Shown piece by piece: positions 43,486 through 64,000 of a DNA stretch of 64,000 bases (its first letter is position 1; the number at the start of each line of letters is the position of its first letter). A model generated the notes under the pieces. The model saw nothing but the letters and a program-made list of their open reading frames with translations. It did not search any database and was not told the origin of the DNA. The stretch lies in NCBI GenBank assembly GCA_025435555.1, contig JAIWWG010000073.1, positions 115,293 to 179,292 of the forward strand, given 5' to 3'. The DNA is from Chytriomyces cf. hyalinus JEL632 (lineage: Eukaryota; Chytridiomycota; Chytridiomycetes; Chytridiales; Chytriomycetaceae). The position numbers and the translations under genes were made by a program.

Positions 43486-45558
43486 GGGTTTGAAGATGGT
43501 TGTGGGTATTTTTGATGGGGCAGCGGTGGTCCCGAGATGGTCAATGCAGATGGTACGATGCCAGACGCGGCATCTGAAAGCGGAGCATCTTTGGGCGCAA
43601 CAAAGTCCAAGATTGCAGGTTCCAAACGTCCTCCAAGAATTTCCTCGCCCATCGGGTAATCATCTCCTGCACCATCCAATCCATCAAACCGACTCCGCCG
43701 TTCAATCAATTCACCACCTTGGTCCTCTCGACGTTCATAATCTCCTTCACAATCCTCGTCACTTTCACTATCACTATCGCCAAGCATAAACCCAGCTTTT
43801 CCTGCACCATTCCCGCCACGTCCAACATGAAGCGCCATCACCTCCTCCCCTTCATCCCCATCATGCAAGTCATCCAGCGAAGTCAAATCCACTTTTGAAT
43901 TCAAACTAACAAGAAGCGGGAAACTCGGGCTACTCATTTCATGCGGATGCGGGATAGCATACAATGGATTCGTAAAACTCGTCGTCAATGTCGGGCTGAG
44001 CGGCGGCACGGGAACAAGTGGACTTGACGGCCCGATCGTGATTCCAACGCTATGCGAGCTACTATTTGACGCGCTGCATCGGCTGTGTGGACGTGTGGAG
44101 GAGGGAATGCTGATGGGACGCGTTTGGCTGGTGCTTCTGCTGGAAGTTGTTGATGCAGTTTCGTCGTGGATGGAGGAAGGATCGTCTGGGTCTTTTAATG
44201 GTATCACGTGCGCGGGGTATGTTATGGGGCTGAGGGGTGGAGTTGAAGGGCCGTGATCGGTCATGTTGGGTGTGGGTTGCACGTAGCTGATGTGTTTGAC
44301 TGCTTCCATGACAATGTATACAAACTGTAAGAGAGAGAGTTTCGAGTTTAAAAAACATACAAGCTGGATTAGGTAAGTCCTTGATTCGAAATGGTTTTAC
44401 CACAGAATCCTCAAATACGTCATAAAACTGCACAATATTCTCATGCTCCAGTCGACGCATAATAAACACTTCCATTGGCACGACGCAGTTCAATTCATAG
44501 TCTCGTTTCCAACCTCCTTGACCCATCGGAATCCGATCTTTGAACATGAATTTGACAGCAACTTGGACTCGATCCAGGTTACGGGTCCCACTGACAACAA
44601 ATCCGGTTGATCCTTCTCCCAAAGGATGATGCAAGGTATATTGACTCAACAGTTTGATGGGGAGCGTCATTTGCGGGTCCGGCAAGCCAGGAATCGAGGA
44701 CAAGAATTGTCGCAAACCCGGGCTCACAAACTCGAGCATGAGTTCCTGCGCAATCGGATTAGGACTGGATGAGCCGCCAAACGTGGCAATAGAGCTTCGG
44801 CGTGATGAATTTGAGTAGTTGCTTGCCGTTGCATCCCAGTTGAGAGGATTTGAGATTGCGTTTGAAGGGCCAACCATGTTGAATGGAGAATTGGGCCGGG
44901 ATACGGAAGTTGAGTTTGAACCAAAGCGAGAAAACTTTTGGGTCGGTTCTGCCGTATGTGGCACGGGTATGTTGTTGGGTGGCTTTGACAGGTCGTCAGA
45001 AGGGGGGCACGGTTCATGAGGAACTTGCGGTGAGTGTTTTGGAGTTGGACTTTGTGATTTGAGCGCAATTCTTGATGGCCGCAGAAGAGAAAGCGGGTCG
45101 TCAAGCATATCGGATTCCTTATCGGGGATGGATGATGGATGTAACTCGACAAAACGACGAGACTGCTGAGACTGCGGCTGCGACTGAGACATGGCCGGAG
45201 ATCCACTAAAGACCGAAAAACCGCGCTGCTGCTGCTGGTTGTTGCGCGGCGCGGACGATACGAACGAGACAGGCTTGGAAGCGTCCATCACGGATGATGA
45301 GTCATCTGTCAAAGCAGGGGTCGCATCCACGCTCGAGAGGCCGCCAGCGACACCCCCGAATCCCTTCACTCCCAAAGCACGACCGATGGACCTGACGCTG
45401 CTGGTGGTGGAGCCGGCAAGGGACGTTGCAGTGGGGAGACTGGCGCTGGTACTGCCCCTCCGCCTGCTCCAACCACTGACGCTCATGCTGCTCTCATCAT
45501 CAAAGGGGTCGATGTCGAGGACTGCTGCTTTGTTGCTCGTGAACGTGCGAAAGCTCAT
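42633..45558 (-). CDS. PAS-kinase-like Ser/Thr protein kinase with long interrupted catalytic domain
   Basis: Start at 45558, stop at 42633, with introns near 44376, 43190, 43135 and 42900-42855. The N-terminal 300 residues are Ser/Pro-rich and disordered, with no PAS domain seen. The kinase domain begins LHHPLGEGSTGFVVSG and VQVAVKFMFKDRIP. VPMEVFIMRRLEHENIVQFYDVFED joins across an intron to VYIVMEAV. About 270 residues of low-complexity, acidic and polyQ sequence then intervene before SKDLFDYIERKPRMSE. HSRGFVHRDIKDEN, VKVIDFGASRSI, GTLTYAPPE and DVWSLGVLLFILL complete the domain. The KFIFK/RDLFDYIE/DFG(A/S) wording resembles PAS kinase (Psk1/2, PASK). PAS kinases tune glycogen and translation to nutrient state. 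Confidence 0.82.
43433..43484 (+). repeat. (TTG)n microsatellite encoding polyGln
   Basis: About 17 uninterrupted TTG units on the plus strand, read as CAA (Gln) on the minus strand within the kinase insert. All codons are CAA, so the tract is a pure repeat and likely to be length-variable. Confidence 0.95.
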
Positions 45559-46566
45559 TCAAAAAGCGAGTCTGGAAAACGTTTTTTTTTCTTTGTTCAA
45601 CGTAACTTTAATTTCGATTGACTCTTTTGAAATTACGTTCTGGCTTCCGTGTCTGGATGGGTGTGGATGGGTGTGGATGGGTATGGATGGGTATGGATGC
45701 ATGGGTGTGGACGGATGTTGTGTATCATCCCGTGGATAAGACTGCGCTGTCTTTATTGGATGTGCATGGATATGGACATGGATATGGATGGAGTGAGGAC
45801 CTGGAGTGGATGCACGTAGCATGTTACCCACCCCCTGGTTGGCTGCATGAGTACATCCATCCATCCAACTACGCGAATACCCTGCTTGACTACAGACGCA
45901 ACAGGTCTCACTGCGCCTTGTCCTCAAAACCAAGGCAACTCACTTGGCTTGTTTGGAAATCTTGCCTGAAAAGAAAATGAAATTTTGTGCGCCATTACCA
46001 AACTTGCGGATGATTGCACACACAATGGACGAAGAGCAATGACAGGTCCATTGTGCCCTTTGTGTCCATTGTTGAAGCGACCTTGTCGACTTTCCTGGTA
46101 CTTACCACCTACAGCGCAACTACTTTCTTGCTAGTAGGCTACTGCCGCCAGGTTCTCTATTGCAAGCAAACTCTTGTTACTAGTAGGCTACTGCTGCACG
46201 CCTGCTGCACCAAGTGGAAACTGTTTCCTGCCACCTTGGCCTTAACTCAGGATGTAGCCAGGATCCTACCATCTTGCTTCTTTCCACTTTCGACCCACTT
46301 GCTTCCACTGGCGGCGCTTGTTAGTAGTTTGCTGGTTGGTTTGGTTTTGTTTTGCGTTACTGCATGGACTGCCGTTTCTCCCTCTCCTTCGACCTTTAAG
46401 CGTGAAGCTTCTCGCCTTCTTTGATCCCACGCATTGCTACCAGCCACGAAAAAAGGTGGAGCAATCGGAGAGGAGACGTACCGCCTTCAAGTGCTGGCGT
46501 CTGACAACTCAGTTTTTAAAACCTTGAAATATAACGGACGGCAAATTACGTTTAAATTTTTAAAGC
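45559..46566. other. 1-kb divergent spacer between the kinase and SEC14
   Basis: No supported gene is seen. The spacer holds the GGATGG-type minisatellite (45654-45791), a CATCCATCCATCC tract near 45854, and a 15-bp direct repeat CTAGTAGGCTACTGC at 46131-46145 and 46180-46194. It is the largest non-coding gap in the window apart from the transposon. Confidence 0.5.
45654..45791 (+). repeat. GGATGGGT-type minisatellite in two blocks
   Basis: The first block (45654-45716) has five near-perfect 10-bp units TGGATGGGTG/TGGATGGGTA. The second block (45757-45791) has units such as GGATATGGACATGGATATGG. They lie just upstream of the kinase gene and could influence its promoter, but no function is shown. 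Confidence 0.8.
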
Positions 46567-48206
46567 ATGTCAATGGCAAAGAGCATGGAGAACCTCAGCG
46601 GGCGCAGTGGGCACCTGACCGCAGAGCAGAGCGCAACACTGGAACAACTCAAAACCATTCTGGTTGCCGAAGAGGGTGGCAAGTACTACAACCAGGACCT
46701 GCATTCCGATCACCAGCTGTTGAGGTGAGAGAGGAGTTGCTCTTTTTCTCTCTCCTGCACATGTACCTCTTGCTCGACGAATATGCTTGTGTCATTCGGC
46801 GGTGATGGAATGCGTTTTTATGCTTGGTGAGCGACAAGTCACTATGTGCTGGCAAGGTTTAAATTGGGGGCGGAACACCTCTCTACTCGAAGATGGGGAC
46901 TGGGGACACGCGAACGTCGAAATGGAAGCGTCGCCATTCTTGAATCTATATCTGCAAACAGAAGCGCTGTTTCTCGTTTGTGACGCTCTGAAACATGTGG
47001 CGTAAATTTCACTTTTTGTGTGGAGCTTTGCCATGAACGCAGATAGCCGCGCTACGCTGGTGCGCCGTTTAGTGTCATCACATATTTGGGACGCATTTGC
47101 GAGGATGTGGGTGGGGTGGCTGGATGTGTCTATCGGAGGATTGTGATATGTCTATCTCATTTTTATCCCCTCAAAACTTTGAGGGTCACCAAGAATCTTA
47201 CCAGCAAATTCCATACAGATTCCTTCGTGCAAGAAAGTTTGATATTCCTGCATCCAAGAAAATGTGGATCGACTGCCAAATCTGGAGGAAAGAGTTTGGC
47301 GCGGATGATATTTTGGAAACGTTTGAGTTTCCAGAGTACATGCAAGCCATGAAATTTTACCCAAGGTTTGTTGAACAACGTTTTTTTCTTCATCTTCACC
47401 GACCCTCCCACGTCTCACTCATTTTTCTTTTGGGCAGATTTTATCATCAAACCGACAAGATCGGGCGGCCCGTCTACATTGAAAGCTTGGGTGCATTGGA
47501 CTTGCAGAAATTGATGTCAAGCACCACGGAGGAACGCATGCAGAGGAACCACGTTCACGAATACGAACGCTTGATTCGATACCGATTGGCAGCTTGCGCT
47601 TTAAAAGCTGGAAGGCATTTGGAGCAGAGTCTTGTGATTCTTGATCTGAAGGTTCGTGTCAAAGTGACCTCAATTTACGTTCGCGTTTTCTTAAATTTCT
47701 CAATCTTTCCTGTCACACCCCGTGTTTCGATATTAGGGAATTGCATTGAGCACGTTCAGCAGCGTGTACGGAATCGTGAAAAGTGTAACGGCAATTGCAC
47801 AGGACTATTACCCAGAAATGCTTGGAAAGATGTTTGTCATTAATGCACCGATGCTGTTTACCGGAGGTGTGTTTTACATTTCTCGTTAGTTCATAGACGT
47901 GCGAACCAAATTTAGTGACATAATTTCCTCCCAGTTTGGTCCCTGGTGAAACCATTGCTGGACGAAGCAACCGTCAACAAAATCAATATCCTTGGAAGCA
48001 ACTACGCGGATAAGCTTCTTGAATGCGTGGATGCAGACAAGCTGCCAGCATTCTTTGGAGGAAAATGCAAGTGTGTAGGAGGTTGCGAAAACAGTGACAT
48101 TGGACCTTGGTGCGATGGCAGTGTAGAGGGTTACCCGAAGGAGGAGTTTGAGAGGCAAGCAGTCAAATATGGCGCCCTTGACGTGTACAGACACGTGAAA
48201 AAGTAG
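46567..48206 (+). CDS. SEC14: SEC14-type phosphatidylinositol/phosphatidylcholine transfer protein
   Basis: Five exons (46567-46724, 47219-47365, 47438-47651, 47737-47866, 47935-48206) give about 306 residues, close to yeast Sec14 (304). The CRAL-TRIO N-domain has HQLLRFLRARKFDI (joined across intron 1). The lipid-binding domain includes KFYPRFYHQTDKIGRPVYIE, LGALDLQKL, VHEYERLIRYRLAACALKAG, VILDLKGIALSTFSSVYGIV, IAQDYYPEMLGKMFVINAP, VKPLLDEATVNKINILGSNY, and LPAFFGGKCKC. Sec14 couples PI and PC levels to Golgi traffic. Intron 1 is 494 bp, five to ten times the usual length here; no gene is seen inside it. Confidence 0.95.
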
Positions 48207-48612
48207 TGTGTGTTGTTTTTTTTCATTCATTTTTTTTGTTTTCAGAAGGGGGGACTCTTTTTTATTTTATGTTTGATGACCCCAGTATCTGTATGTTGAA
48301 AGTGCTGTCCGTTGACTCTCAGTAAAAACCCCTGCTGAGACCTTTTCCCCCATCAAAAAAATTTCGATCGTATTGGGCAAAAGTGCTTCGAACCGAGTCC
48401 ATGACTTGCGCTCGTTGGTCGTTGGTTGAGTTGTTGATGGGTGTTGGAATTTGGCTTCTAGAACTCCCAGGCCTAGATTCAGTCAATTTGCCGAGCGAAG
48501 TCTTTTCCCAATTCGAATGCCCTGAAAATCAAAACAAACGCGTTTCCTCAACAGTACGTCTTTAGTGTGTAATGCGTGCCTGTCAAACTTGGACCATAAA
48601 ATCCGCAAATAA
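48207..48612. other. Spacer between SEC14 and the methionyl-tRNA synthetase gene
   Basis: This stretch of about 400 bp holds T-rich 3' sequence of SEC14 and a 60-codon open frame (48383-48565) with no recognisable similarity. It may contain an upstream exon of the tRNA synthetase, whose 5' end is not fully resolved. Confidence 0.35.
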
Positions 48613-50607
48613 ATGCTGGGTCGCTTAACGCCTCGCTTCTCCAACGTCGGCATCTACATTCAAACTCGAAGCCCGTTCTGATCACATCGCCGATATTCTA
48701 CGTGAATGCGGGTCAGTGCTTTCACTGCGCGCAATGAAAGCATCGCTAAGCCTTCATCCCACACAGTCCCTCACATTGGACACTTGTACTCGGCGGTCCT
48801 CGCTGACACGTTGAAGCGGTGGTACGCTTTGAAAGGCCATGAAACATTGTGCAGCACGGGTACGGACGAACACGGCCTCAAGGTAAGGTGCCTTCTTCTG
48901 AACAAAACGACAACCAGTGAGAGCTGAATGTCACTCAATAGATCCAAGGAGCCGCTCGAAAAGCAAAACAGGATCCGAAAGAATTTTGCGATAGCATCTC
49001 TCACAAGTTTAAGGTGAAACGAGACTTGCGTATTCTGTTATGTGTTATGTTCAAAACAACTCATTCATATCAAAGACTCTGTTTGATTCATCCAACGTGT
49101 CGTACACTCGCTTCATTCGCACGACAGACGCTGATCATTACACGGCCGTTGACGCGATATGGGTGTGCTTCAGACGATACCCAGCTCAACAGCCTCAGCT
49201 GATTCTCTTGTTATTAAACAGAGGAAACTGGTTCAAAACGGATACATTTACAAGGGAACTCACGAGGGATGGTACTCGATTTCCGATGAAACATTCTATC
49301 CAGCAACGCAAGTGGAGGCTGTGAAAGATGCGAAAACGGGCGTTGAAATTATTACTTCCAAGGAGTCTGGAAAACCTGTCGAATGGACTGTCGAAGAAAA
49401 CTACAAGTTTCGGCTCGGTGATTTGAAAAATCGATTGGTGGAATGGCTTGAAGCAAATCCAGATGGTGACCATTTTGTTGTGGGCGATGACTTCCCTGAA
49501 AGGATTGACAAAAAACAAAACCAGCGATTCTTCCAAAAGCGCAATACCTCAACGTGTTAAGTACTTTAAAAGCAAATGGGGAAGAGAGCCTCGGAGACAT
49601 TTCAGTTTCACGACCCAGTTCTCGGCTTCAGTGGGGAATCCCCGTCCCCGATGATCCATCCCACGTAATCTACGTATGGCTGGACGCGCTCACAAACTAC
49701 CTCACAGTCGCCGGATATCCATGGCCCGACAACGCCACACAAGCCAAAAGCGCATGGCCAGCGCAATGGCACGTTGTAGGAAAAGACATTGTCAAATTCC
49801 ATGCAATCTACTGGCCCGCGTTTCTCATGGCCTCAGACCTGCCTCTACCCAAACATATCATTTCACACGCGCATTGGTTACAAGGAAAAACAAAAATGAG
49901 CAAATCATTGGGAAATGTGACGGATCCGCATGCATTGATTGAAACGTTTCGAGGGGTTGATCCTGTCCGGTATTTCTTGATGCGGGATGGAGGGATTGAG
50001 TATGACGCTGATTTTAGCAAAGATATGGTGATGAAGCGGTATCGCGAGTTGTCGAATCAGTTGGGAAATCTGGCGTTGCGGTGTAGCGGCGAAAAGGTGA
50101 ATGCGGGCCAGTGCATTCCTCTAGGGCCTGGTAAAGGCGGGTATGGAAAGTTTGAAGAGAAGCTTTGTTGCTTCTGAATCAGATTCGAGGTGAGTTTTTC
50201 ATCTTTCAAGTCACGATTGTTTTCCATAACTTGAGCTGAACAAGAAACGCCCCATCCTAGACCGAGTTACTTCCACGTTTGAAAACGCGCAATTTTCGAA
50301 TGGACTAGAGTCCATCATCACTCTCGTAAATGAAGCAAACGGGTACTGGGGCGACCAGAAACCATGGGTCTTGGCCGATCAGATTTCTTCCGGCGGCGCC
50401 GAAGCAGACGAAGCGCGTGAAAAGCTACAAACAGCGCTGTATTTAAGCTTCGAAACAATGCGCGTTGTTGGGATCCTTCTTCAACCCGTGATGCCGTCAA
50501 AGATGGAAACGCTTCTTTCCTGGATGGGCGTTGACAGCGAGCACACGTGTTGGGATTGTGCAGTGTTGAGCGGAGGTGAACAATGTGAAGAGGCTGTGCG
50601 GTTGTGA
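48613..50607 (+). CDS. MSM1: Mitochondrial methionyl-tRNA synthetase
   Basis: At least seven exons: one ending at 48711, then 48767-48882, 48942-49013, 49076-49162, 49222-49465, 49525-about 50180, and about 50260-50607. Class-I motifs are clear: [20 protein letters not shown] (HIGH), [71 protein letters not shown] and KMSKSLGNV (KMSKS). The C-terminal anticodon-binding helices include [11 protein letters not shown] and [19 protein letters not shown]. The short form without the C-terminal extension points to the mitochondrial enzyme. The first 21 codons ([20 protein letters not shown]) look like an import signal but are one frame off the HIGH exon. The junction near 50150 also needs a resolved splice. 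Confidence 0.85.
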
Positions 50608-50696
50608 AAGTTGGAACCCTTGTTTCCCAAGTAAAAAATAAAACGCAGACAAATCAGAAAGAAAAACAAGGCCCAAACACTCCCCCGTCTGCTGGA

Positions 50697-53600
50697 ATGG
50701 ATCCCGGTCGCAATTCATCCACGCCCAGGGCAAGACGTCCATGGCGGCCGAAACAGGCGCAGAGCAGTTCTCGGTCGACAGATGGAAGCAGGGCTGACAC
50801 ATCACTGCCTCAGAGGCATTCCCAACCAAACACTCTGTCCGGAGCAAGCCATACCAACAATCACTCGAATCATCAAACGCATTCATCACACAAATCTCGG
50901 CATGACCATGACAGAAGCCACGAATCTGCATCAAACACATACCCAACCTTTGCGGATCACAGGTCAAAAGAGCATAGCAATGGATATCTTCAACCATCTC
51001 GCGTCATTCCTTCATCTTCATCTTCCCATGCCTCTTCCTCCTATTCAGCTTCCGCGCCCAGCGTGCGAGAATCAACTCCAAACAAAGTTCTCGTCACTGA
51101 ACGATCATCCACATCCACAGTCCGTATCCGTCTCGACGTGCCAAGTGTCTCAACTTCATCTAAATTGAACGTGTCTCGTTCAGATTCAAACTTGTACGGT
51201 CAAAGTGATGATGCTGCTGATGAAGATGATGCGGATCTCACTTGCAGCGAACTGGACGAACAAGAGTCCTTGAGATCAGCAGTTAATCCTTTGAAACGTA
51301 AAGAAAAGAATACTCCGTCGTCAAAAACTGTGGAATCGCAGTCTGAAGTTTTGCCGAATGCGTCCGAAACTCTTTTCGAACAACCTCAAAACAACCAACA
51401 CCCGAAACCTTTGTCTGCCAATGAACGCGCCGCTCCTTCACAACTTTCGGAAAGAAAGTCGATCACGATTTCGGACCCGCCAAAAACTGATTCTCCTCCT
51501 CTGCGCAGATTAGTTAATGTGAGAATCAAACTGCCTGGGTTATCCCCACGCATCAGCAATCCTCCGTTCGAACCCGCTGTCAACGAACCCGTCAAATGGA
51601 CATCCGCAGAAAGACGCACAGTCGAAAAGGTAAGAATTTCAATCTTGTCTTGACTGCACAGTGAGTTGATGAACGCAAAAAAAAACCCAGTCAGCAAGCA
51701 GAACCACAATCGCATCTCTTCCAACGCTTGAAAGTTTCAAAGCACCGACAACGCGTGCAAGTTTCCTCGCACAATGCACACCGCTGCTATACGATGTCCT
51801 GCACACGAAGCCACTAACACATGCCTCGGCGCCATCCCGTAAAGCAGCGTGTTGGGGGCCAACACTGTCGAGTGGCGGTAGACCTGTTGTTTGGACGCTT
51901 TCAAACAGTGCAGAGTATGGAAGCGTGATTGGTAAAAGCGAAGCAACAATGCATCGTCCGCTGTCGAACGAAAATATAGAATCGTGTTTGAATGCAATGC
52001 GGAATCCGGAGATGGCGTTGAATTCATCTGTTGAGTTGTTAATGACTTTTTGTTTTCGACAACTGAAACTTTTGGTTTTTCAAACATTCAGAAGATGCGC
52101 TCAGTTGAAACGGCGCTTCTGCGAAAAGATTCTGGAAAGTTTTTAAAATGTTTTCATGCTCGAAACTGGCTCATGACAAGTGCAAACGGTGGAGCGCACG
52201 CGATTTGGGATTTGGACGATGAATCTCCGTTCAGCAAAGCACCGGGTCTTTTGCTCGCTGGGCTCATGATCCCGGCCACGTCTGCGATGGATATATCTAA
52301 AAATGATCAGCTTGTTGCTGTCTCTTGTGAGTGCTTATTTTATTATGTCACTTCTGCTGATTGCTGTAACTTCCTCCATCGCAGACACAAATGGAAGCAC
52401 GTATGTATGGAACATGAATCAAGATCAAATCGGAGGTGAGCCATTCACAATCAAATTAAAAAAGCTATAGACCTTACAAAAGTATTCGAAGCGCAGAAAA
52501 GAAGCTTTCCAACACATCCGTCTTGCTGCATCCAGATCACTCTTCATCAAAGCCAGGCCAAAACAAGCGGATATCAGCATTGTGTTTCAACTTGAGCAGT
52601 AGCTCGTATCCATTTATTGCATTGGCGTATCGTGATCGCGTCGTGTTTGTTGACAGTCGCACAAAGAGGCATGTTCATTCTCAGGTGGGAAAGAATCATT
52701 TGAGAACCTCATTTTTGTTTGGGAGGCAAGCTGACATGCGATTTAGATTCTACAAACTACAACATCTCCCGTCACTGCGATGCACTGGAGCGAAGTGGAT
52801 GGCAACATGGTTGCAACGGGAAATGCGGTTGGAGAAGTAAAAATTTGGGATGTCCGCAACATTACGGGTGGTGGTACCGCAAAATTTGAACCGCTACCCG
52901 TGTGTACTTTTTATGTAGACGCTCCTCCAGCGTCAGCGGATCAGTCAGCAGTAAAGCGGCCAGATCCTGTGGCGGTTCAGAAGATTGAGTGGGCACCGCA
53001 TTGTAAAGGAATCTTGATGGCCACGAGGGCTGATGGAACCGTCACACTGTACAATTCAGCTGTATGTTCACATGCTTTGTCAGCATTTTCATTCTGACTT
53101 TCCCTTTGAATCAGAAACGATACCCGTTCTTTACGCACGAACACCACCGAGGCACGCCCGTGTTTTCTTCAAGTTGGAACCAAGATGTAGTGCATGAAGG
53201 GTTGATCATGAGTGCAGCTAATGTGACTGTGGAGGACACGAGCGAGGCGACTGTTCAGCGTGAGTGTGCTTTGATTGCTTATTCCTGATATTGCGTCATG
53301 CAATCCCCTTTACACCGCCAACGAAAAAACCGACCGATAACGGCCGCGAAAGAAATCGGAGCGGAATCGGCAAAGCTTTCGGCCGAAATCGGCGTCGGCC
53401 GGGATCGTCACCGATTCGGCAACGATGACCGGTTGATTTGCCTGTCAGTAAACTGTTGAATAAACTGCTAAAAAACGGGCCGATTGGCGGAGAATAAACG
53501 GCCGCTTTTGAAATCGGCCGTTATTCGGTCGCATGACACTGAAGATTGTCGCCCGATTTTTAGCCACAGATCATCGGCGGATGAGCTGGAGAAAAACGGC

Positions 53601-56600
53601 CGTTTCATCGGCAGAAAAGCGGTGCTAGAGATAAAAGTGACAAAAAGGGGACTTGAACCAGCATACCACGCAGTGGATGCGAGGGTTCCCACGACTATCC
53701 TGCATGCCCAGTGACGATGGGACGGAATAGCTAATAGTGTGGAATGGCTCTGAGTACGAGGAGTTTTTCTGAGGATTGTCTTTAAGAGAATTAAGAGTTG
53801 TAAGAGAAGCTGCTTTATTCAAGTGAACGAGGAGCGCTTTAAATATTGAATTCCAGTTTTCTAAATAAAGAGTTTTCCAAAAATGTCGTGGGAAGTGGCG
53901 AGAGAGATTTCGACATGTCGAAATCCGGTTCCAAAAATGTTGTGAAGAACGGTTCCAAATATAGCTGAAAGGCGAGAGCGGTAGTTACGTGATCAGGCTG
54001 ATTACGTAACAGAGGGCTTTGACAAGACTGAACATAAAACACTTAAAAGGCTGCGCTCTTATTTTGTGAGAGGATTTCATGACCAACCACTATTTGCCAA
54101 TCAATTGCTCCACCAAATCATCTCCTTTCACCTTTGTTTTGCAACACTACATGGGCCTTGGACCTCAAGTGCTCAGACAGGCTCTCAATTCTTTATTGAA
54201 TCAAAGAAGCAACAAACATCTCAAGCTTTTGAGAGTAAAAAGTCAAGGAACACATCTGTTTGGGCACTTCCAAGTGTGTGATGACATTCCATGCGAAAGG
54301 GATTTAGAAAATACGTGTTCAAAGTTGAATGTGCAATAGATCCATCTTGTCTCCAGCTGCACAAAAACTGCTCTTCCCAGCAGTCGTGACTGACATCTGC
54401 TTGGTCATTGATATTGCCAACAGGGACATAGAAGTTGTTGTGCAAACTACATGCACGTAATCTCCATGATGTTAACTGGCCGTTCAGCTCTAATTCTTGC
54501 ATTAGACAAGTTTTGGTGTGCTCGTTATGTTGAATGACTTTTCCAATACGGCCCCAGTTGTCAAAAAAGAAGAATCTGCCAATCTGAATGCGAGCTCTTG
54601 ATGGAACTGGCCTGATGGGAGGGAACAAATGCTTGACTATAATGGAATTTGCTCCAAGTTCAAGTAATCCAGGCCCTCCTCCTGATGCCCCTCGTAAATA
54701 TGATACTGTCCCTTCCCGAATTGCAAATGCCCATGCCACATCTCTTGATGGTGAATGCCGATTTGAATTTGCTATGTCTTTGCGCACATCTCCATTCATT
54801 TGTTCTGGAACTTCAACAGCATACAGAGACAGTGGTCCCCAGATCCGGAAATTATCAGGGAGATGAGAAAGTAGATGGACTTTGAGCTTGTCTTTTGCTG
54901 ATGGCAGTGAAACATGGAACAGACGCTGAACTGCAATGGTAGCCTTTTGGAGATGGCGGTACCTTAACTCAAAGTGTGGATACTTGGAATCATATGCCAG
55001 TTTCGTAAGAATTGCACCAGCAAGCCAAAGCCAAGTTAGATTTGGCTGAAGCCAAGGGAAGAATAATGGCCCTATTTGTGCAAGGCCCTTGAAGTCTTTT
55101 CCATTCATGCTTCCAATGTAGCGAGTCACTTGTTTTGATGACAAATGACAGTGTTGATAGGTTGAGATGATTGCAAATAGAGATGCAGCTCTGAGTTTGA
55201 GAGACCTTGACTTCAGCTTTTCTTTGGACTCTGTCCCCAAGTATTTCATGACTCCAAGTAACAGTGTATGGAGAATTTCAACTGGAGTTTGCGCATGAGG
55301 TGAAAAACCAGGGAGGGAGAGATAGATGTTGGCGTGCTCAGATGGAACAGTTATCCCAGTTGCTTTTCTCAGAGACTCTGATTGTGTTTTGTTCATCTGT
55401 GCCATTCGAGACAGTACTTGCTTGGTTTCATATAACCATCGATAAGGATGAAGTTGCATGCAAGTGGATGGACTTCCAATAGGTGCAGTGCAAACTCGAC
55501 AGTTGAAGTCACTTCGTGCTCCAGCTTGATGGCATATTTGGGCTGCACGTGGATTATCCACAAGCATTGCAAGTAATTGTGAAACAACAATCACATCCTC
55601 TCCGGTGCTTGAGTCAAGTACTTTGATTCCAAGAGATAGAGGGCTGCCTGGTGATTTATTCAGTACTGCAATGTCAAAATAAATACAGATTAATGTTACC
55701 TTCTCTCAAATCGTGCAAGACAACCTCAGCAATATCTGACCATGATCCAGTGTTTGTAGTGGCAGCAAAGTTGATATATCGAGGACCATAAAACTTGTGC
55801 GGAAGCAATGGAAATATAACGAAAAAGTTTTCAAAGTGGTTGTAGCGCTTGGTTGTGTTTCCTGAAGTTTCATCTGAGCTGCAGATGACTGGAAAGTTGA
55901 TGACTTTCCGGCCATTTGCTGAACAAATTCAGTTACTATCTTCAAAATAAATGCTTGCACACAAACCTCGAATACTGAGATTGCCCCTTTGAACAAGTGT
56001 CATTGCATCCCCTGGATGCAGTTCAACTGTAGTTGTGAAGTTTTGCAACAACACAGAATGGAAATGCTCAGCAACTTGCCCAAATGCCACAATACCAGGT
56101 TTTGGAAAACACTTAATAATGCCTTCTTCAAAATTGGGCATTACAACAGTATCTCTAAAAGTGATATCAGCTAAATCACTAAAAACATTTAAGGAAGATC
56201 TCACCCAGCGTAAAATCGAGTTGAATTGTTGTCCATCCAAAGGCAAGGCGCTCTCACAGAAAATGCTAATGACTCAAAAATTTCTTGTGGATGTGTTGAT
56301 AACTGTGGACCATATCGGATTTCCTTTGCAATAGATGGTGTTGCAAACGCAGATTCAATGAGCTCAGGAATAGGCCTGACAAAGATTTGAATGCCTGATG
56401 CAGATTTCCTTTCAATGGGCTGCACTTTGCAAAGCTTCTTGCGTAGCTTCAAAATTGCATTCAAAGAAGGGCACTTGACTTGCAGCAGTTCAAATATTCC
56501 CCAGAGAAGTTTCATTTGAGTAATACTGATGCGGCGACGCTTAGCAAATAGCAGACTGAATAGCAGAGCATGTGTTCTTGATGGAAATGGGTAGAAATGG

Positions 56601-58760
56601 CTGGATCCAAAGTCAGAAGCTGCATCATCAGAGTCCATATCAGAACCATCATCAGAGTCCATATCAGAACCATCATCAGTGTCTGACAATTCCATGTCAG
56701 TTCTATCTGACTGATCAATACTGTTGCTGTCGCTTGTGCTGTGATGTTCATCTGGTCCAGCCACAATTGCGCATTGTTCTTCTGCTCTGACACTTTTGTC
56801 ACTGAGACAATCATTGGAATCTGCTGGCAACAGATCTGTCAGTCCATTTTGTAAATTGCTAACCCAGTCAAAAAGCCTTTACCTGCTTCAGTCTCAGCAA
56901 TCATATTGATGCACTCTTGGTTGAATGCAAGGCTGTCAAAACTTTGCTGAGCAGAGCTTGTACTCTTGCATGAATGCATACTCCAAGCATCATCTGATTC
57001 CGACTCATTTGTGCAACGCTGCAGATGATGGTTCAGATTCCTTGCCCAGCGTTTCCCAGCAAATGGCGTGTTGCAGTTTGGACATCTGTGCTGACTTTGA
57101 TGCATGTTGGGCACAAATTGGGATGAATCACAGAACAAATTGGGCATGTCGGAACAAATTGGAGCAAAGAAAAATGAGCCTCAGAACTGATCAGCATGCA
57201 AGGGTGATCTGATACAGTGTATCTTCCACTGCACAGGGGTCAATCAGCTTTACTTTCCAGGGATCTACTGGCCAGCCAGTTTCTTACCGCCCTCGTCATC
57301 AGGATGAAGAGTTTGACCAATTCAGCCCCCAACAAAGGGGACCTGCCAGATTCTCCAACTCACCTCTTCAGGCTGGTCCATCAACTCAGATTGGTATGTT
57401 GCCTTTCACTACATGATGTTTCTCACCTCACTGTCTCATTCAAATTCAGATATGCAGCCCTTTGTCTCTGTGATCAGAGATCTGAAAGAACAGTTTCAAG
57501 AGCAGGCTGAATACAGTAACAGTGAAACCACAGCTTTGAGGCAGTCTATTGCTATGCTCAGCAATAGCTTTGTGCCCAAGATGCGTGAGACAATTCCAAA
57601 AGCGTTGAGGACAGACATCAAACGTGCAAATGAGAAATATTTTGTCGCAACTGCCACCAAGTACGTTCTGAAACCAAATCTCACTAAGATAGAGGTGAAA
57701 ACAAGTCCTATTGATATTCATCTTTATTAACTCTGCTTCTTCACATTCAGCATCACCTTGAAACAGAATGGGGACCCTTGATTGCAACATACAATGAAGA
57801 TCAGCGCACCATGTTTATTGAAGAGATCAAGAGCTCATTTCGAAGCGCTCGCGACACTATGGTGAAGAAGGTGAGTTGATGGCATTGAGTATGAATGGCT
57901 CTGTTGTGCTGAACTAACTTTGCATTAATAGATCAAAGGACACTACAATAAAAACACCGCTAATCTCACCCTTCAAAAATACGCTGTAGTTGTATTCGGT
58001 GATAGGTGCAAGTTGACGAATGACGTTCTGAAGCGTGCAGCGTTGATGGTAAGTGTTTCACGATGTTTCGCAATTGTGACACGAATATAAATACTCACCT
58101 TCACACAGCGCAGAGTCCGTGGTATGTTGAGGGTGAGGGTTCCCTACTTTGCGATCCTCATCGAGGAGATGAGGCGCATTGCAGGTCTTGGGCCGGGGGG
58201 TCCTGCTGAACTGGAACGGATCAAGGCCTTAGATCTGGCAACATACACAGATCAGGGCCCACAGGCAGCCGCTGACTCAAATGATGAGAACGAAGGGGTA
58301 TAATCGCTGCTCACCTCAACAGCGGCATTGTTCCTTGCGACGGGTGGTCTTGCGACAGCTGGTCTTGCGACGAGTGCTCATTTTATACATAATAAATTTT
58401 TAACTTTACGAACGATAAATATTTTATTTTACTGCCCATAAATCCAGCTTTTGGGTTGACCGTTCATCGACTGGTTTGCAGATACGCGGCCGATATGCTT
58501 GCGAGATACGGCCGATAGGTTTCCGATGTTCGACCGATAAATCGGAAGAACATCGGCCGAATGGCGTGAGCGTCCGGATCTCGGCCGATTTATCGGTCGT
58601 GTATCGTCGCCGCATCGTCGCCGTTTTCGACTGATAAATCGGCCGATTTCGCCCGTGAAAAGATTGGGGGTGTATTAATTATGTTTCTAAATTGGGGCAC
58701 GAATGGAAAGTGTGGCGGTGTCATGCGTATGGGCGTGAACGGGAAGGGATGTATCTGTGA
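50697..58760 (+). CDS. WD40-like protein gene interrupted in its last intron by a transposon
   Basis: Exon 1 (50697-51629) encodes a Ser/Arg/His-rich disordered N-terminus. Later exons encode WD-like blades: WLMTSANGGAHAIWDLDDES, AMDISKNDQLVAVS, NGSTYVWNMNQDQIG, FNLSSSSYPFIALAYRDRVV, VTAMHWSEVDGNMVATGN, GEVKIWDVRN, VQKIEWAPHCKGILMATRAD, GTVTLYNSA. Exon 7 ends at 53259 (EDTSEATVQ) at a strong GTGAGT donor. If the element at 53313-58672 is treated as intronic, the acceptor at 58709-58710 gives a final exon 58711-58760 encoding LWRCHAYGREREGMYL. Without that splice the frame ends nine codons past the donor at 53288. The protein resembles RBAP/MSI-type propellers only loosely; I do not recognise the orthologue. 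Confidence 0.7.
53330..53610. repeat. Left subterminal GGCCGA-rich repeat region
   Basis: A dense run of short palindromic units (CGGCCG, TCGGCCGA, GGCCGAT and variants) in both orientations, inside the left end of the element. Such subterminal arrays commonly bind the transposase in CACTA-type elements. Confidence 0.7.
53640..53712 (-). other. tRNA-like sequence near the left end of the element
   Basis: Read on the minus strand it contains a B-box-like GGTTCAAGTCC directly followed by CCTTTTT, a possible Pol III stop, and upstream CGC-ATCCACT-GCG, which could be an anticodon arm with CCA in the loop. The T-stem pairs poorly and I cannot fold an acceptor stem, so this is at best a degenerate tRNA or a tRNA-derived (SINE-like) relic. 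Confidence 0.3.
54221..57147 (-). CDS. Plavaka/CACTA-like transposase
   Basis: At least four exons on the minus strand. The start at 57147 gives a zinc finger (CPNCNTPFAGKRWARNLNHH, then C). Intron 1 joins AETEA to DSNDCLSDK, leading into an acidic DDGSDMDS repeat. The catalytic region contains VINFPVICSSDETSG, then PLLPHKFYGPRYINFAATTN, DNPRAAQICHQAGARSDFNC with CRVC, and the strongly diagnostic TPVEILHTLLLGVMKYLG. GKDFKGLAQIGPLFFPWLQP and HLLSHLPDNFRIWGPLSLYA follow. This order (N-terminal zinc finger, SSD, DNPR..C..C, PVE.LH, W..G) is that of fungal Plavaka-type transposases, which cut and paste their element. No disabling stop is seen in the 457-residue last exon. The family name is recalled from general knowledge, not a search. 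Confidence 0.75.
57174..58303 (+). CDS. Second transposon-encoded protein, function unknown
   Basis: The start at 57174 (MSLRTDQHAR) is followed by a possible 33-bp intron and a Gln/Pro-rich stretch (GPARFSNSPLQAGPSTQ). A phase-1 intron leads to DMQPFVSVIRDLKEQFQEQA. Later exons read HHLETEWGPLIATYNEDQRT, FIEEIKSSFRSARDTMVKK, YAVVVFGDRCKLTNDVLKRA and FAILIEEMRRIAGLGPGG, and end in an acidic NDENEGV. It is helical and charged with no known catalytic motif. Its position, divergent from the transposase and inside the element, suggests an accessory DNA-binding or regulatory protein, like the second genes of plant CACTA elements. Some splice sites, especially the one near 57647, are uncertain. Confidence 0.55.
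58478..58660. repeat. Right subterminal GGCCGA-rich repeat region
   Basis: The same kind of short palindromic units as at the left end (CGGCCGAT, GACCGATAAATCGG, TCGGCCGATTTATCGGTCG) fill the right end of the element. The two arrays are similar in motif but not collinear. Confidence 0.7.
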
Positions 58761-58958
58761 GGGTGCAATAAAGAAGCGAATGCATATAAAAGTGTAACAG
58801 ACGATGTGTGTGTGGGGATGGATTGTGGGCAGTCCAGTCCATGTGGGGAAACAAGTGTGAAATAATTGGCTGGGTTGCCACTCGGGCAAGATCGGCGGTT
58901 TCCGGAGAACAAACAAAATTTGTGTGCGTTTCAACTTGCACCCAAAAACATTTCACAT

Positions 58959-60169
58959 ATGGCAACTACCGCAACTACTTCTGCTCCAGTGGCTGTGAAG
59001 AAGGCGAACGAGTTGAGTTTTTGCTGACTTGAATGCGCGGAAATCTGTGATGCGTTGCTTACCTTATCTCTATCTCCCACTGCGACAGATTTGACCTTGA
59101 CAAGGTATCCGGACGTGTTAACAACCACCAATTGCAAAGATCTGAGTTGCTAACCGGGTGCAATTCATGTTTTATTGCTGTGTGGATTTAGGCTCTCAAA
59201 CGTGCGCTTGGCGGAGGAGTCTCTGGAGCAGCAGCAATGGTTGTGCAAGTGTTTACGCTGATGCCAATGCGGACCATCATGAACTACCAGTACAAGTACG
59301 GATCCGACTTCAAAACTGCAACCGGCACACTTTACAAGGAGGGCGGAATGGGTAAGTCAATTATCTTGACGTGATCACCAAATCCAAAATATACTGATCA
59401 ACAAATTTTGAAGTTCGGTACTATCGCGGACTTGGACCGGCGCTGATTCAGGGACCCTTGTCTCGGTTCGGAGACACGGCCTCGAATGCGGGAGCGCTGG
59501 CGCTGCTCGAGTCATCGACGTTGACGCGGGATCTGCCAATGGGAGTCAAGACGCTGTTTGCATCGGCGTTTGCTGCGTGCTTTCGAATGACTCTTACGCC
59601 CGTGGACACGCTCAAGACAACCATGCAGACAAGTTGAGTTGCTTTTGTTTTGATGCGCATTCGTTATATTGGCCCTCCTGCTTGGATTCTAAATTGCAAA
59701 TTTCCCACATTCGAAATCTTTTGCAGAGGGTACCGAAGGAACAGCACTGCTCCGCTCACGCGTCAAGGCCCACGGAGTCGGAACACTCTGGTACGGCGCG
59801 GGAGCATCCGCCGCTGCCACATTCGTTGGTCACTACCCCTGGTTCGCAACGTACAACATGCTCCAAGAATACATCCCCAAACAAACTGCAACCGGCAAAA
59901 AACTCGCGCGTAACGCCGTGATTGGATTCAGCGCGAGTATCGTCAGTGACTGTATCAGCAACTCGTTGCGCGTGATCAAGACGTACCGACAGACGCATGA
60001 AGTGCCGATTTCGTATCGACAAGCTGTGCAGGAGGTTATTGCAAAGGATGGCGTTGTTGGGCTGTTTGGGCGTGGACTGCGGACGCGTATCTTTACGAAT
60101 GGACTTCAGGGGATCATGTTCTCGGTGTTGTGGAAGGTGTTTGAGGAGAACTTGTTCCCAAAGAACTGA
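58959..60169 (+). CDS. Mitochondrial carrier family protein
   Basis: Five exons (58959-59011, 59089-59104, 59192-59351, 59414-59632, 59727-60169) give about 296 residues. The second exon is only 16 nt, and with it the N-terminus reads VKKANEFDLDKALKRALGGG. The three carrier repeats are present, but only the second has a standard signature (TPVDTLKTTMQ). The first is MPMRTIMNYQYKYG and the third SNSLRVIKTYRQTH, both lacking the acidic residue of PxD/ExxK. GFSASIVSDCISNSLR and the Trp/Tyr-rich GTLWYGAGASAAATF are other features. Fungal and algal genomes carry a subfamily of this kind with unknown cargo. It should be an inner-membrane transporter; the substrate cannot be named. Confidence 0.85.
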
Positions 60170-60331
60170 GCTTCTCCCATTCACTTCCTTCATCTTCCCG
60201 CCGGACTCGTCTCATTTTCCATATCAGCCAACACGTTTGAATAAACAGAAAATGCACCAAATAATTCCAACAATAATCCAACCCAAAAATGATATTTATT
60301 TCGCTTTCTTTCTTTTTTTCTCAAAATAAAA

Positions 60332-61843
60332 ATGTTCAAGGGAAAGGCATCCACAGTCGTCAGCAACGGCGTGCGCAAGTCGAAAGCAGCCGTCGCAAAG
60401 GCAAACGGCCGTACCGCAGCACTACCATCCATAAAGAAGACTTCCGAAGACTTGGACCTCGACATTGAGGCCTTCATCAACAGTCAGGAGGCTGTCGACG
60501 TGGACTCTATGCTCAGCCGCAGTGGTGTCGACAAGGTGTCCAAGAAGAAGAACAAGACAAAGAAGAAGGGCGGAGTTGTTGAGGCTGTAGTGGAGGAGGC
60601 GGATGTTGTTGAGGCTGGTGCTGAGGCTGATGGGATGGATGTGGACTTGGACATGGATGAGGAAGATCTCGCAGAGCTGAAAGCGTACGAAGAAATTCAG
60701 CGGGAGCAGAGAAAGGCAAAGAAAGCTCTGAGGGAAATGGCGCGCCTGGTTGGCATGGAAGACAACGAGGGGGGAAGCGAAAGTGATGGCGATGACAGTG
60801 AAGACGACATGGATGAGAGTGACGATGAGCCAACAGCCAAAGTGTTTAGAAACGACAAGGTAACCTGTCCATGCGAGTGACTTTCTTTGGTGTTGGAAAC
60901 CATACCACTCACACTGACGCACCTCTTTTATATAACCCACAACACAGCCCGCCCTCCTCGCAAAACTCGACCAAATCCGTCTCGACTCTGCCCCAGGCGC
61001 CGTCCTCCCATGGATCGAATTCCAACGAATCACATCAATCGAACCGTTGGAACTCCTCCCCACCGACGTGGACAATGATTTAAAGCGCGAAATGGCTTTT
61101 TACAAACAAGCACTTGAAGCAGCTATTCTTGGATACAAGGAACTGCGTCGCGCCAATGTTCCTGTTCATAGACCGGACGATTACTATGCAGAGATGGTCA
61201 AGAGTGATGAGCACATGATGCGCGTGCGTCAGAAGCTTGTTGATGAGGCGAATAGTATTGCTGCTGCTGAGAAGGCTAGGAAGTTGCGTGATGCCAAAAA
61301 GGTGAGTTTTTACATCTCTCTCGCTCTCTTCCTCCTTTGCTTACCCAAAAAAACTTTCAAAAATCACAGTTTGGAAAAAAAGTACAACACGAAAAACTCC
61401 AAGAACGTGAAAAATCCAAACGCGAAGAACTCGACAAAGTCAAACTGTTGCGCAAAAAAGCTGGCTCCAGCAAAAACAAGGACGGCCAAGATGACGACGA
61501 ATTTGGCATTTCTGTTGAAAAAGAGTACGGCGAAACGAGTTCTGGAAAGGGAGGGTCAGAAGCTGCGGGTGTCAAGATGGGTAAAAATGGGGGCAAGAGT
61601 TCTGCGGCGGCCGTGAATCATAAGCGTAAAGCAAAAGATGCCAAGTTTGGGTTTGGTGGGAAGAAGCGGTTGGCAAAACAAAACACCCGGGATAGTACGG
61701 ATGATATCAGTGGATTCAGTGTCAAAAAGATGAAGAGTGGGTCCAGCATGGGTCAAAAGAAGGGAAGTGGTGTGAGCAAGAAATCTGGACAGAGACCGGG
61801 AAAAGCTCGTCGCCAGAAATCTTTTGGTAACAGCAAGCGTTAA
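60332..61843 (+). CDS. EBP2: EBP2, ribosome biogenesis protein
   Basis: Three exons (60332-60859, 60948-61301, 61370-61843) give about 451 residues. The N-terminus is basic, then acidic (MDVDLDMDEEDLAELKAYEE). The conserved core is VLPWIEFQRITSIEP, LKREMAFYKQALEAAILGY and YYAEMVKSDEHMMRVRQKLV, then KFGKKVQHEKLQEREKSKR, which is joined across intron 2. The C-terminus is Lys/Gly-rich (GFGGKKRLAKQN, GQRPGKARRQKS). Ebp2 acts in the nucleolus with Brx1 and Nop7 in 27S pre-rRNA processing for the 60S subunit. The match is clear over the whole core. Confidence 0.95.
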
Positions 61844-62017
61844 TATTCCCATTCACTTTTTGTTTTTACACCCTAAAATATGGGCGCGGGGTCTCTCTTC
61901 ACACCTCACAACAATAAAAATTCAACATCGTTGTCGTACTTCATTTTCAGCTGTACGTTTTTGAAATCCTGCACCCCCAACATTTCGTACGAAACTTGGG
62001 GTTTACTTTGAAAACGC

Positions 62018-63962
62018 TCACTCATTCTTCACATCCTCTTCCCTCGCAACAACAGCAACAGCTGCCTCCGCCTCTGCCGCCTTCGCCTCCAACATTGGCC
62101 GCAACCCAAACTGCGCCGCCGCATACACAACCAATGCAATCACAACCAACACCCAAAACAAAATCACATTCGGTGGGAACGGCTCTGAAAACTCGCCAGC
62201 GCTAAATTTAATGCAAATCAAGGACTCGGTCATGACGTTCGCGACGAGCATCCATGCATGGTATCCAAGGCGTTTGCAGCGTCTTGTTTGTGTGAAGCGT
62301 TGTGAGTTGGAGGAAAAATCTGGAAATACGCAGCTGAAAGAAAGCACTAACGGATCACTCAGGTACTGATACACTTCCCGTGTGGCAGGCATGCAAAACA
62401 AAAACATGGTCACAAGTCTCAACACGTTGATGAAATGCGGTGGAGGAAGCCACAAAAGCGCTTTGAGGTAAAACGCGTTCAATTCAATTTGCAGTTCCTG
62501 AACAAAGTTGGATGAGAAAAGGGAACAAAGAGAACAGTTGGGAACAACTCACAAATGCAATCAACCCAATTACAGCAAGGAAGCTTTTAAATGATTTAGA
62601 AGGTCCCCAGTTAAAGCGAGTCCAGGAATGCGGAGTGAATTGCGCAAAACCACGTTGAATCTTTCCTTGATACGTTGGAATCTGGTTGACACTGCGCCAA
62701 GAATATTGCTACAAAAAACGTGTATGAACAGGGAATGCACAAAAAAGCATCAGCGACAAACAAAAACCTAAAAAAAATTGCAAACTCAACCCGACAAGCA
62801 AAAAACTCGCACGTCTTCATTCCAATATAAATGCCCAACCAATTCGTAATAAGCACATCCAGAATCCAATGGTCCCACCAACATTCGGCAAAGTTCGGGA
62901 GTTGGTGCTGAAGCGAGTATTCGAGAAATTCAAATAGGATTGACAAGATCCAGCAGATCCATTGGTCGCGGAGGACCATGGATTTGGCAAACCAGCCGAC
63001 TGTGTGTGCGATCACAAATACGTCCATGTGGTTCTGTGAGATTGAGAAAGGATGAGTTTTTCACTGCACAAGGGCCCGCACTCACATAAACGGTCTGCCA
63101 TGTGATTGAGCAGTCTTCAGCGTAACTCTTTTCTGGGAGTTCCACGCCTAGCGATGGATCCAAGTACGAAAACAAATGACGCGCCGTGTGTTTATCCTGA
63201 AGAAAAAGGTCAAAAACGTTAAGCACTCATTCTCTGGTTGTAGCTTCGAGACATTCTAACTTGAAAAAGCAACATGACGAGAATGAGCTGATACGATACG
63301 CTGACGGCTAAAACAAGTCTCCAGAATGCGGGATGAGGCTGCGTTCAGATGTTTGCAATGATCAGCTTCTTGCAACTCAAAAGACGCGAAATAATGAAAA
63401 AGGCGTACTCGAATAAACGGCCCATCTTTGAACTCAACAAGACCCGTGAGCAGAATCACGCCAAAACAGGCAATCGCTCCCCTATATTTTTTTTTGAAAC
63501 CAAAGCAACGGTTCATTATCAGGATGGTTGACAGACACTCGATAAAGCTTACATTTTGGTATTCGACACGGCATTGCTTTGAGAGTTGAAGGCGTAGTAA
63601 ATGAATCCCGCAATCATAAATAGAAGCTGATTGCAGCGGGGGCACAAGAAGCCGTTCAGCTTTTTTTCGATCCATGGACAGTCATCGAAAATCAGGGCTC
63701 ACCGCAGATATCGTATGGGGTTTATAAAAGAACTCGAGAGTGGGGTTGATATCGTCTGCATATGTGTAGATCCATGAATCGCGCACTAGTTTTGCGGTTT
63801 AGATCACAGTCGGGGCGCGGAGTCGGGTTTTTTTTTCGAAGCGCACGAACCGGAGGAGGGTTTCGCAACCGTCTTTTTTGCGCTTTTGCTTCGGGTTCGT
63901 CCGCGGCTTTGGTCACGAGACGTTGAAGCAGTTTTGGAGCCACGTCGTTTGATTGGCGCCAT
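62018..63962 (-). CDS. PTDSS: Base-exchange phosphatidylserine synthase (PTDSS type)
   Basis: About nine exons on the minus strand. The basic, Ser-rich N-terminus ([18 protein letters not shown]) is joined by a 65-bp intron to [20 protein letters not shown]. Helical blocks follow: [36 protein letters not shown], then [19 protein letters not shown] with [13 protein letters not shown]. The signature region is [20 protein letters not shown] and [20 protein letters not shown] with [11 protein letters not shown]. Next come [18 protein letters not shown] and VFQFTPHSW-like and [19 protein letters not shown] parts, the latter restored by removing a 72-bp stopless intron. The enzyme swaps serine for choline or ethanolamine in phospholipids at the ER. 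Yeasts make PS by the unrelated Cho1 route, so this gene is notable for a fungus-like genome. Confidence 0.9.
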
Positions 63963-64000
63963 TATTTTCGTACAGTATTATTTTTTATTTTAGGTTACTG

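Follow-up and report, generated by a model that had tools for sequence, protein, structure and literature searches.

A recently active CMCT-clade transposon in the last intron of a WD40-repeat gene of Chytriomyces cf. hyalinus JEL632

Transposons of the CMCT clade (EnSpm/CACTA, Plavaka, ESTA and their kin) are described in PMC12730594 as having CA...TG termini, duplications of 2-5 bp and a DDE transposase with C(2)C and H(3-4)H motifs between the second D and the E. Intronic insertions of CACTA elements are known in plants, as with TgmR* in an intron of the soybean R gene (PMC4219821), where, according to that account, expression of the host gene depends on splicing the element out. Here we describe a CACTA-type element likewise lying in an intron, in the chytrid Chytriomyces cf. 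hyalinus JEL632; the soybean case is a plant in which expression was measured, whereas the chytrid case is known from sequence alone.

When compared with the families as PMC12730594 describes them, which is the basis on which we set it apart, the chytrid element shares features with each without coinciding with any. It has a DDE, C2C and H3H signature, CACC...GGTG ends and a 2-bp duplication in 27/27 copies, and its transposase appears to carry the signature of the EnSpm-Plavaka (CMCT) clade, fitting the features given there. It resembles fungal EnSpm (CACTA) in its CAC...GTG termini and in the C(2)C and H(3)H motifs of its DDE transposase, but differs in its duplication, which is 3 bp in fungal EnSpm and here 2 bp in all 27 copies, mostly TA. 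With Plavaka it shares the 2-bp duplications and the transposase motifs of the clade, but not the A/B termini, TGT...ACA or CATCA...TGATG. ESTA has an EnSpm-like transposase and TA duplications; in the chytrid element, however, TA (18/27) is a preference and no rule, and Pfam showed no TET/JBP gene, present in the described ESTA families, in the two element proteins. Since its ends and mostly-TA 2-bp duplication fit no EnSpm, Plavaka or ESTA described in that source, we filed the element as a new CMCT family and chose no lineage for it. Literature searches on Plavaka in Chytridiomycota, on JEL632 and on Chytriomyces hyalinus transposons found nothing on the element, and among the matches listed for EnSpm in chytrid and fungal genomes there was no account of it; coverage in both was partial, so that absence from print is unproven. 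The transposon looks like a new, freshly mobile family of a known kind, and intronic insertion is already a known event.

The host gene and its interrupted last intron

The window, the whole 64,000-nucleotide stretch analysed here, corresponds to C214:115293-179292 in an assembly of 37.8 Mb and 242 contigs. The host is a WD40-repeat gene on the forward strand, whose exons 1-7 span 50698-53259 in our splice model (50698-51629, 51691-52029, 52092-52326, 52385-52435, 52497-52684, 52747-53061 and 53115-53259) and agree as far as ATVQ with P0001, the protein deposited for JEL632; the six introns between them are 53-62 nt long in this model. The exon ending at 53259 is followed by a phase 1 donor, GTGAGT (53260-53265), and reading through it gives the C-terminus RECALIAYS and a stop at 53288. 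This truncated form is the one in which P0001 was deposited, and the truncation may be a mere choice of gene prediction.

The element starts 53 nt past the host exon and occupies 53313-58672 (5,360 bp, forward strand), between two TA copies at 53311-53312 and 58673-58674 that were identified by copy comparison and from an empty site. Beyond it, the acceptor AG at 58709-58710 opens a last exon (58711-58760, forward strand), which together with the split codon encodes LWRCHAYGREREGMYL and a stop. The donor, the element, the acceptor and the stop ending at 58760 all lie where the original prediction had placed them. It had also called the 89-nt empty intron normal in size, which is only roughly right: the length is indeed 89 nt, but this is longer than the other six introns.

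The claim that the element had entered the last intron with duplication of one TA was likewise supported, both by the boundaries of 27/27 copies and by the empty site on contig C23. Both flanks of the insertion match C23 in order (left 84%, right 89%), with 10 bp between the two matches, and the alignment reads CCTCTTTA-TTAATTG, with one TA and the element absent at the homologous site. On a larger scale C23:19783-46570, part of which is locus L035, matches window positions 44000-63990 at 79-92% with interruptions, this in-order match suggesting that C23 is a diverged haplotype, a duplicate or a hybrid subgenome in the JEL632 assembly. The WD40 copy on C23 (in L035, homologous to window 50500-53300) is decayed, with most coding sequence missing, and its tail departs after LW (LWHVIRVG...). 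Since a search of the assembly with the host gene gave no match beyond C23, where the copy is decayed, no complete uninterrupted host copy was found in this assembly. A partial C. hyalinus deposit, P0006, is likewise without the middle of the WD40 gene.

Comparison with relatives indicates that the 16-residue last exon is genuine. A conserved C-terminus of this length had been predicted, with orthologues ending near ATVQ as the contrary case, and the search of relatives found the tail in both P0002 (from C. hyalinus, and joined in its gene model to methionyl-tRNA synthetase) and P0005 (Chytriomyces sp. MP71, 48% identical). At the position of the host tail these proteins (n=2) have LWRCHAYGRERHGMAQ and VWRSNAYIRERLALAS, 16 residues long as in the host; the C-terminal end of P0002 is EATVQLWRCHAYGRERHGMAQ, that of P0005 is GTVQVWRSNAYIRERLALAS, and the host product, if the element is spliced over, is EATVQLWRCHAYGREREGMYL. 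Among the 69 AG acceptors at 58673-60200, the one at 58710 scored 80 and 39 against the tails of P0002 and P0005, the next best scores being 27 and 28. Three C. hyalinus models (P0003, P0004 and P0006) run from ATVQ into a downstream carrier gene and were taken as putative fused gene models, which neither confirm nor refute the tail. The relatives of the host are a lower bound, as the protein search scored only the 7,991 candidates sharing most words. We presume that the tail, with its TVQ-LW motif, completes the last WD40 strand.

Copies, termini and genes of the element

When the whole region was used as a query, 27 matches were scored of 37 candidates, and the copy number is 27 or more. All 26 of the other copies that were fetched are full length and show no mismatch and no gap against the window's 5,360 bp, and exact ends with a 2-bp direct repeat outside them are common to the 27 copies compared (TA in 18, AA in 4, TT in 3, GA and TG in 1 each). 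Zero differences among 27 copies (about 145 kb) imply a very recent spread; the perfect identity may come in part from consensus smoothing by the assembler. A census by the left 500 bp found 35 matches, 29 of them identical across all 500, and one by the right 500 bp found 33, with 31 at 100% across all 500. In the same end tables two further spans of 5,360 bp (C167:321999-327358 and C46:67267-72626) differ slightly within their left 500 bp; there is also a copy at 98-99% on C39, C49, C102 and C182 have ends that are partial or rearranged, and C217 and C165 have 71-72% relatives of the left end. At C174:297869-298804 a 936-bp span includes both element ends, apparently a non-autonomous deletion derivative.

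The left end (53313-53632) consists of a short imperfect terminal repeat, CACCGCCAA, followed by subterminal CGGCC/ATCGG repeats, and the right end (58453-58672) of the terminal repeat CACCCCCAA (reverse complement) with subterminal repeats of its own; the two share CACC(G/C)CCAA and are both rich in CGGCC/ATCGG. Counted on both strands, the first 320 bp contain 13 CGGCC, where 500 base shuffles gave a mean of 0.81 (the length of the stretch having been picked post hoc); the last 220 bp contain 10, where the shuffles gave a mean of 0.66, and the 4,820-bp middle contains 4. An Rfam scan of the whole window gave nothing at gathering score. An AG at 58662, within the right terminal repeat, is in the frame of the host last exon with no stop over 58663-58710, and could open a hybrid exon.

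Two genes lie inside the element, with introns of 34-61 nt. The transposase gene, on the reverse strand at 54221-57147, has five exons (57147-56883, 56835-56205, 56154-55967, 55918-55700 and 55665-54221) and encodes 915 aa in a spliced model whose start codon we chose, the deposited model P0007 having 774 aa; it was recognised by its open spliced frame, its relatives P0007-P0011 and its motifs. The second gene, on the forward strand at 57174-58303, corresponds to the deposited 279-aa hypothetical protein P0012, from which its start was taken. Five deposited proteins were found as relatives of the transposase: those of JEL632 itself, C. confervae (83%), Obelidium mucronatum (49%), Puccinia graminis (28%, across 56% of the query part) and Lentinula raphanica (32%, across 31%). 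These too are a lower bound, only the 7,988 candidates sharing most words having been scored. Residues D242, D330 and E578 of P0007 are invariant in the 5/5 aligned proteins, and from the alignment of these five we assigned them as the putative catalytic DDE residues. H557/H561 are also invariant (5/5), and a CxxC is present in 4/5, being missing from the aligned part of P0011. Pfam assigned no family to the five aligned proteins (P0007-P0011), and to P0012 only an insignificant ING match (E 0.36); P0012 has four deposited matches, two from JEL632 and two from C. hyalinus. The predicted structure of the transposase, built from only 5 sequences, has a pLDDT of 36.8.

Fate of the host transcript

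The comparisons above show that a recently active cut-and-paste EnSpm/Plavaka (CMCT) transposon inserted at a TA in the 89-nt last WD40 intron and duplicated this TA, leaving the conserved 16-residue tail 5,451 nt from its donor. Most host transcripts would then probably keep the start of the intron, stop at 53288 and/or polyadenylate inside the element, and would in this way lose the tail, while some correctly spliced host message might still be made. The general view is that a short intron is recognised as one unit, its two splice sites pairing across it. Loss of the tail is favoured for this reason, because the deposited model ends at 53288, because the intron now measures 5,451 nt while the other host introns have 53-62 nt and those of the element's genes 34-61 nt, and because three AATAAA in the host-sense direction (53459, 53493 and 53864, within 53459-53869 on the forward strand) fall in the element's first 600 bp. 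These signals were counted without a shuffle control, and with 7 AATAAA on the sense strand and 6 on the other across the whole element, those near the left end may be ordinary. Taken together, an insertion of a CMCT element into the last intron that deprives most host transcripts of their tail seems to us probable, if far from assured.

Splicing out the whole 5,451-nt intron, with the element and both its genes, would instead keep the host protein intact, perhaps depending on whether transposase occupies the element ends. The donor, the acceptor and the phase are all intact, and PMC4219821 reports that the intronic CACTA element of soybean is correctly removed by splicing in the line in which its methylation is higher; but the intron is here some 90-fold the length of the gene's other introns, the element carries AATAAA signals in the sense direction and the deposited model is truncated. 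Such survival by splicing, which the original prediction had preferred as probable, is therefore not supported, and we consider it doubtful, though a serious rival. A hybrid transcript, from the 53260 donor to an acceptor within the element, is very unlikely. Its candidate is the AG at 58662, after which the product would read HWGCINYVSKLGHEWK and then VWRCHAYGREREGMYL. Among the 347 acceptors tested in the element and just upstream of it, this one scored 77 and 42 against the tails of P0002 and P0005 (next 26 and 21), nearly as the genuine acceptor does: it is in frame 48 nt ahead of that acceptor, so that its product continues into the true last exon and includes it. Its context as an acceptor is poor, however, with no pyrimidine tract visible by eye, and in-frame continuation by chance is not rare.

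That the host gene should naturally end at 53288, with the element in its 3' untranslated region, agrees with the deposited JEL632 model, which ends there, but we find it scarcely credible: the tail is present at this position in both P0002 and P0005, which largely refutes it, and RECALIAYS scores 11 against either tail, where the spliced tail scores 80 and 39.

The locus illustrates how a single insertion can sever a conserved end from a deposited gene model. With 27 copies and no difference over 5,360 bp, the burst appears so recent that it may still be running, in which case JEL632 would be a source of a natural mobile element from an early-branching fungus and a clear setting in which to ask how short-intron splicing copes with a 5.4-kb insert. 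A bolder view, which we think unlikely, would see a currently mobile chytrid lineage that stands between EnSpm and Plavaka, having CACC ends, a 2-bp duplication that is TA-like but relaxed, and a second protein of unassigned family, with host output in JEL632 dependent on the removal of a 5.4-kb intron where other introns have about 60 nt.

Insertion sites of the other copies

The original prediction had the element exactly inside the last intron, which holds for the copy in the window but does not look like a rule of targeting, at least two other copies (L024 and L034) appearing to interrupt coding sequence. The intron is therefore probably not the element's target. These cases come from a Pfam scan of 30/73 ORF pieces listed beside the 26 insertion sites. 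At L034 the copy adjoins an F-box/LRR match whose F-box starts at the first residue past the insertion, suggesting that the gene was interrupted near its start, and at L024 the insertion lies two residues from a kinase match that starts only at position 99 of the profile, so that a kinase gene was probably split. A third copy, at L033, lies just ahead of a fatty-acid desaturase match and may be within an intron. The interrupted F-box/LRR gene (L034:7246-8999) belongs to a large family, with at least 81 matches from 40 scored of 112 candidates.

A first coding scan, based on 18 ORFs (16.7 kb) of the window, scored 2/27 sites above 0.15, compared with 35% for the 599 TA controls (binomial 0.001), and was dropped because evident long ORFs scored near zero. 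In a second scan (63 ORFs, 52 kb, each site's own locus left out) 8/27 sites exceeded 0.1, compared with 53% of 810 TA and 57% of 810 random controls, with weak separation. This second scan is a hint that insertions may be fewer in coding sequence than the TA controls are, and it gives no support for intron targeting.

At these three sites a second copy of one flank was looked for. The L034 flank matches C67 at 96%, although this is a large gene family, and the L024 flank matches C178 at 92%, in neither case next to any of the element ends listed; for the L033 flank there is only a partial match, at 79%. The L024 flank (C36:14612-16399) is also found at ~100% on C129:15-1801, where the match starts 14 bp from the beginning of the contig, as if the assembly had broken at the element.
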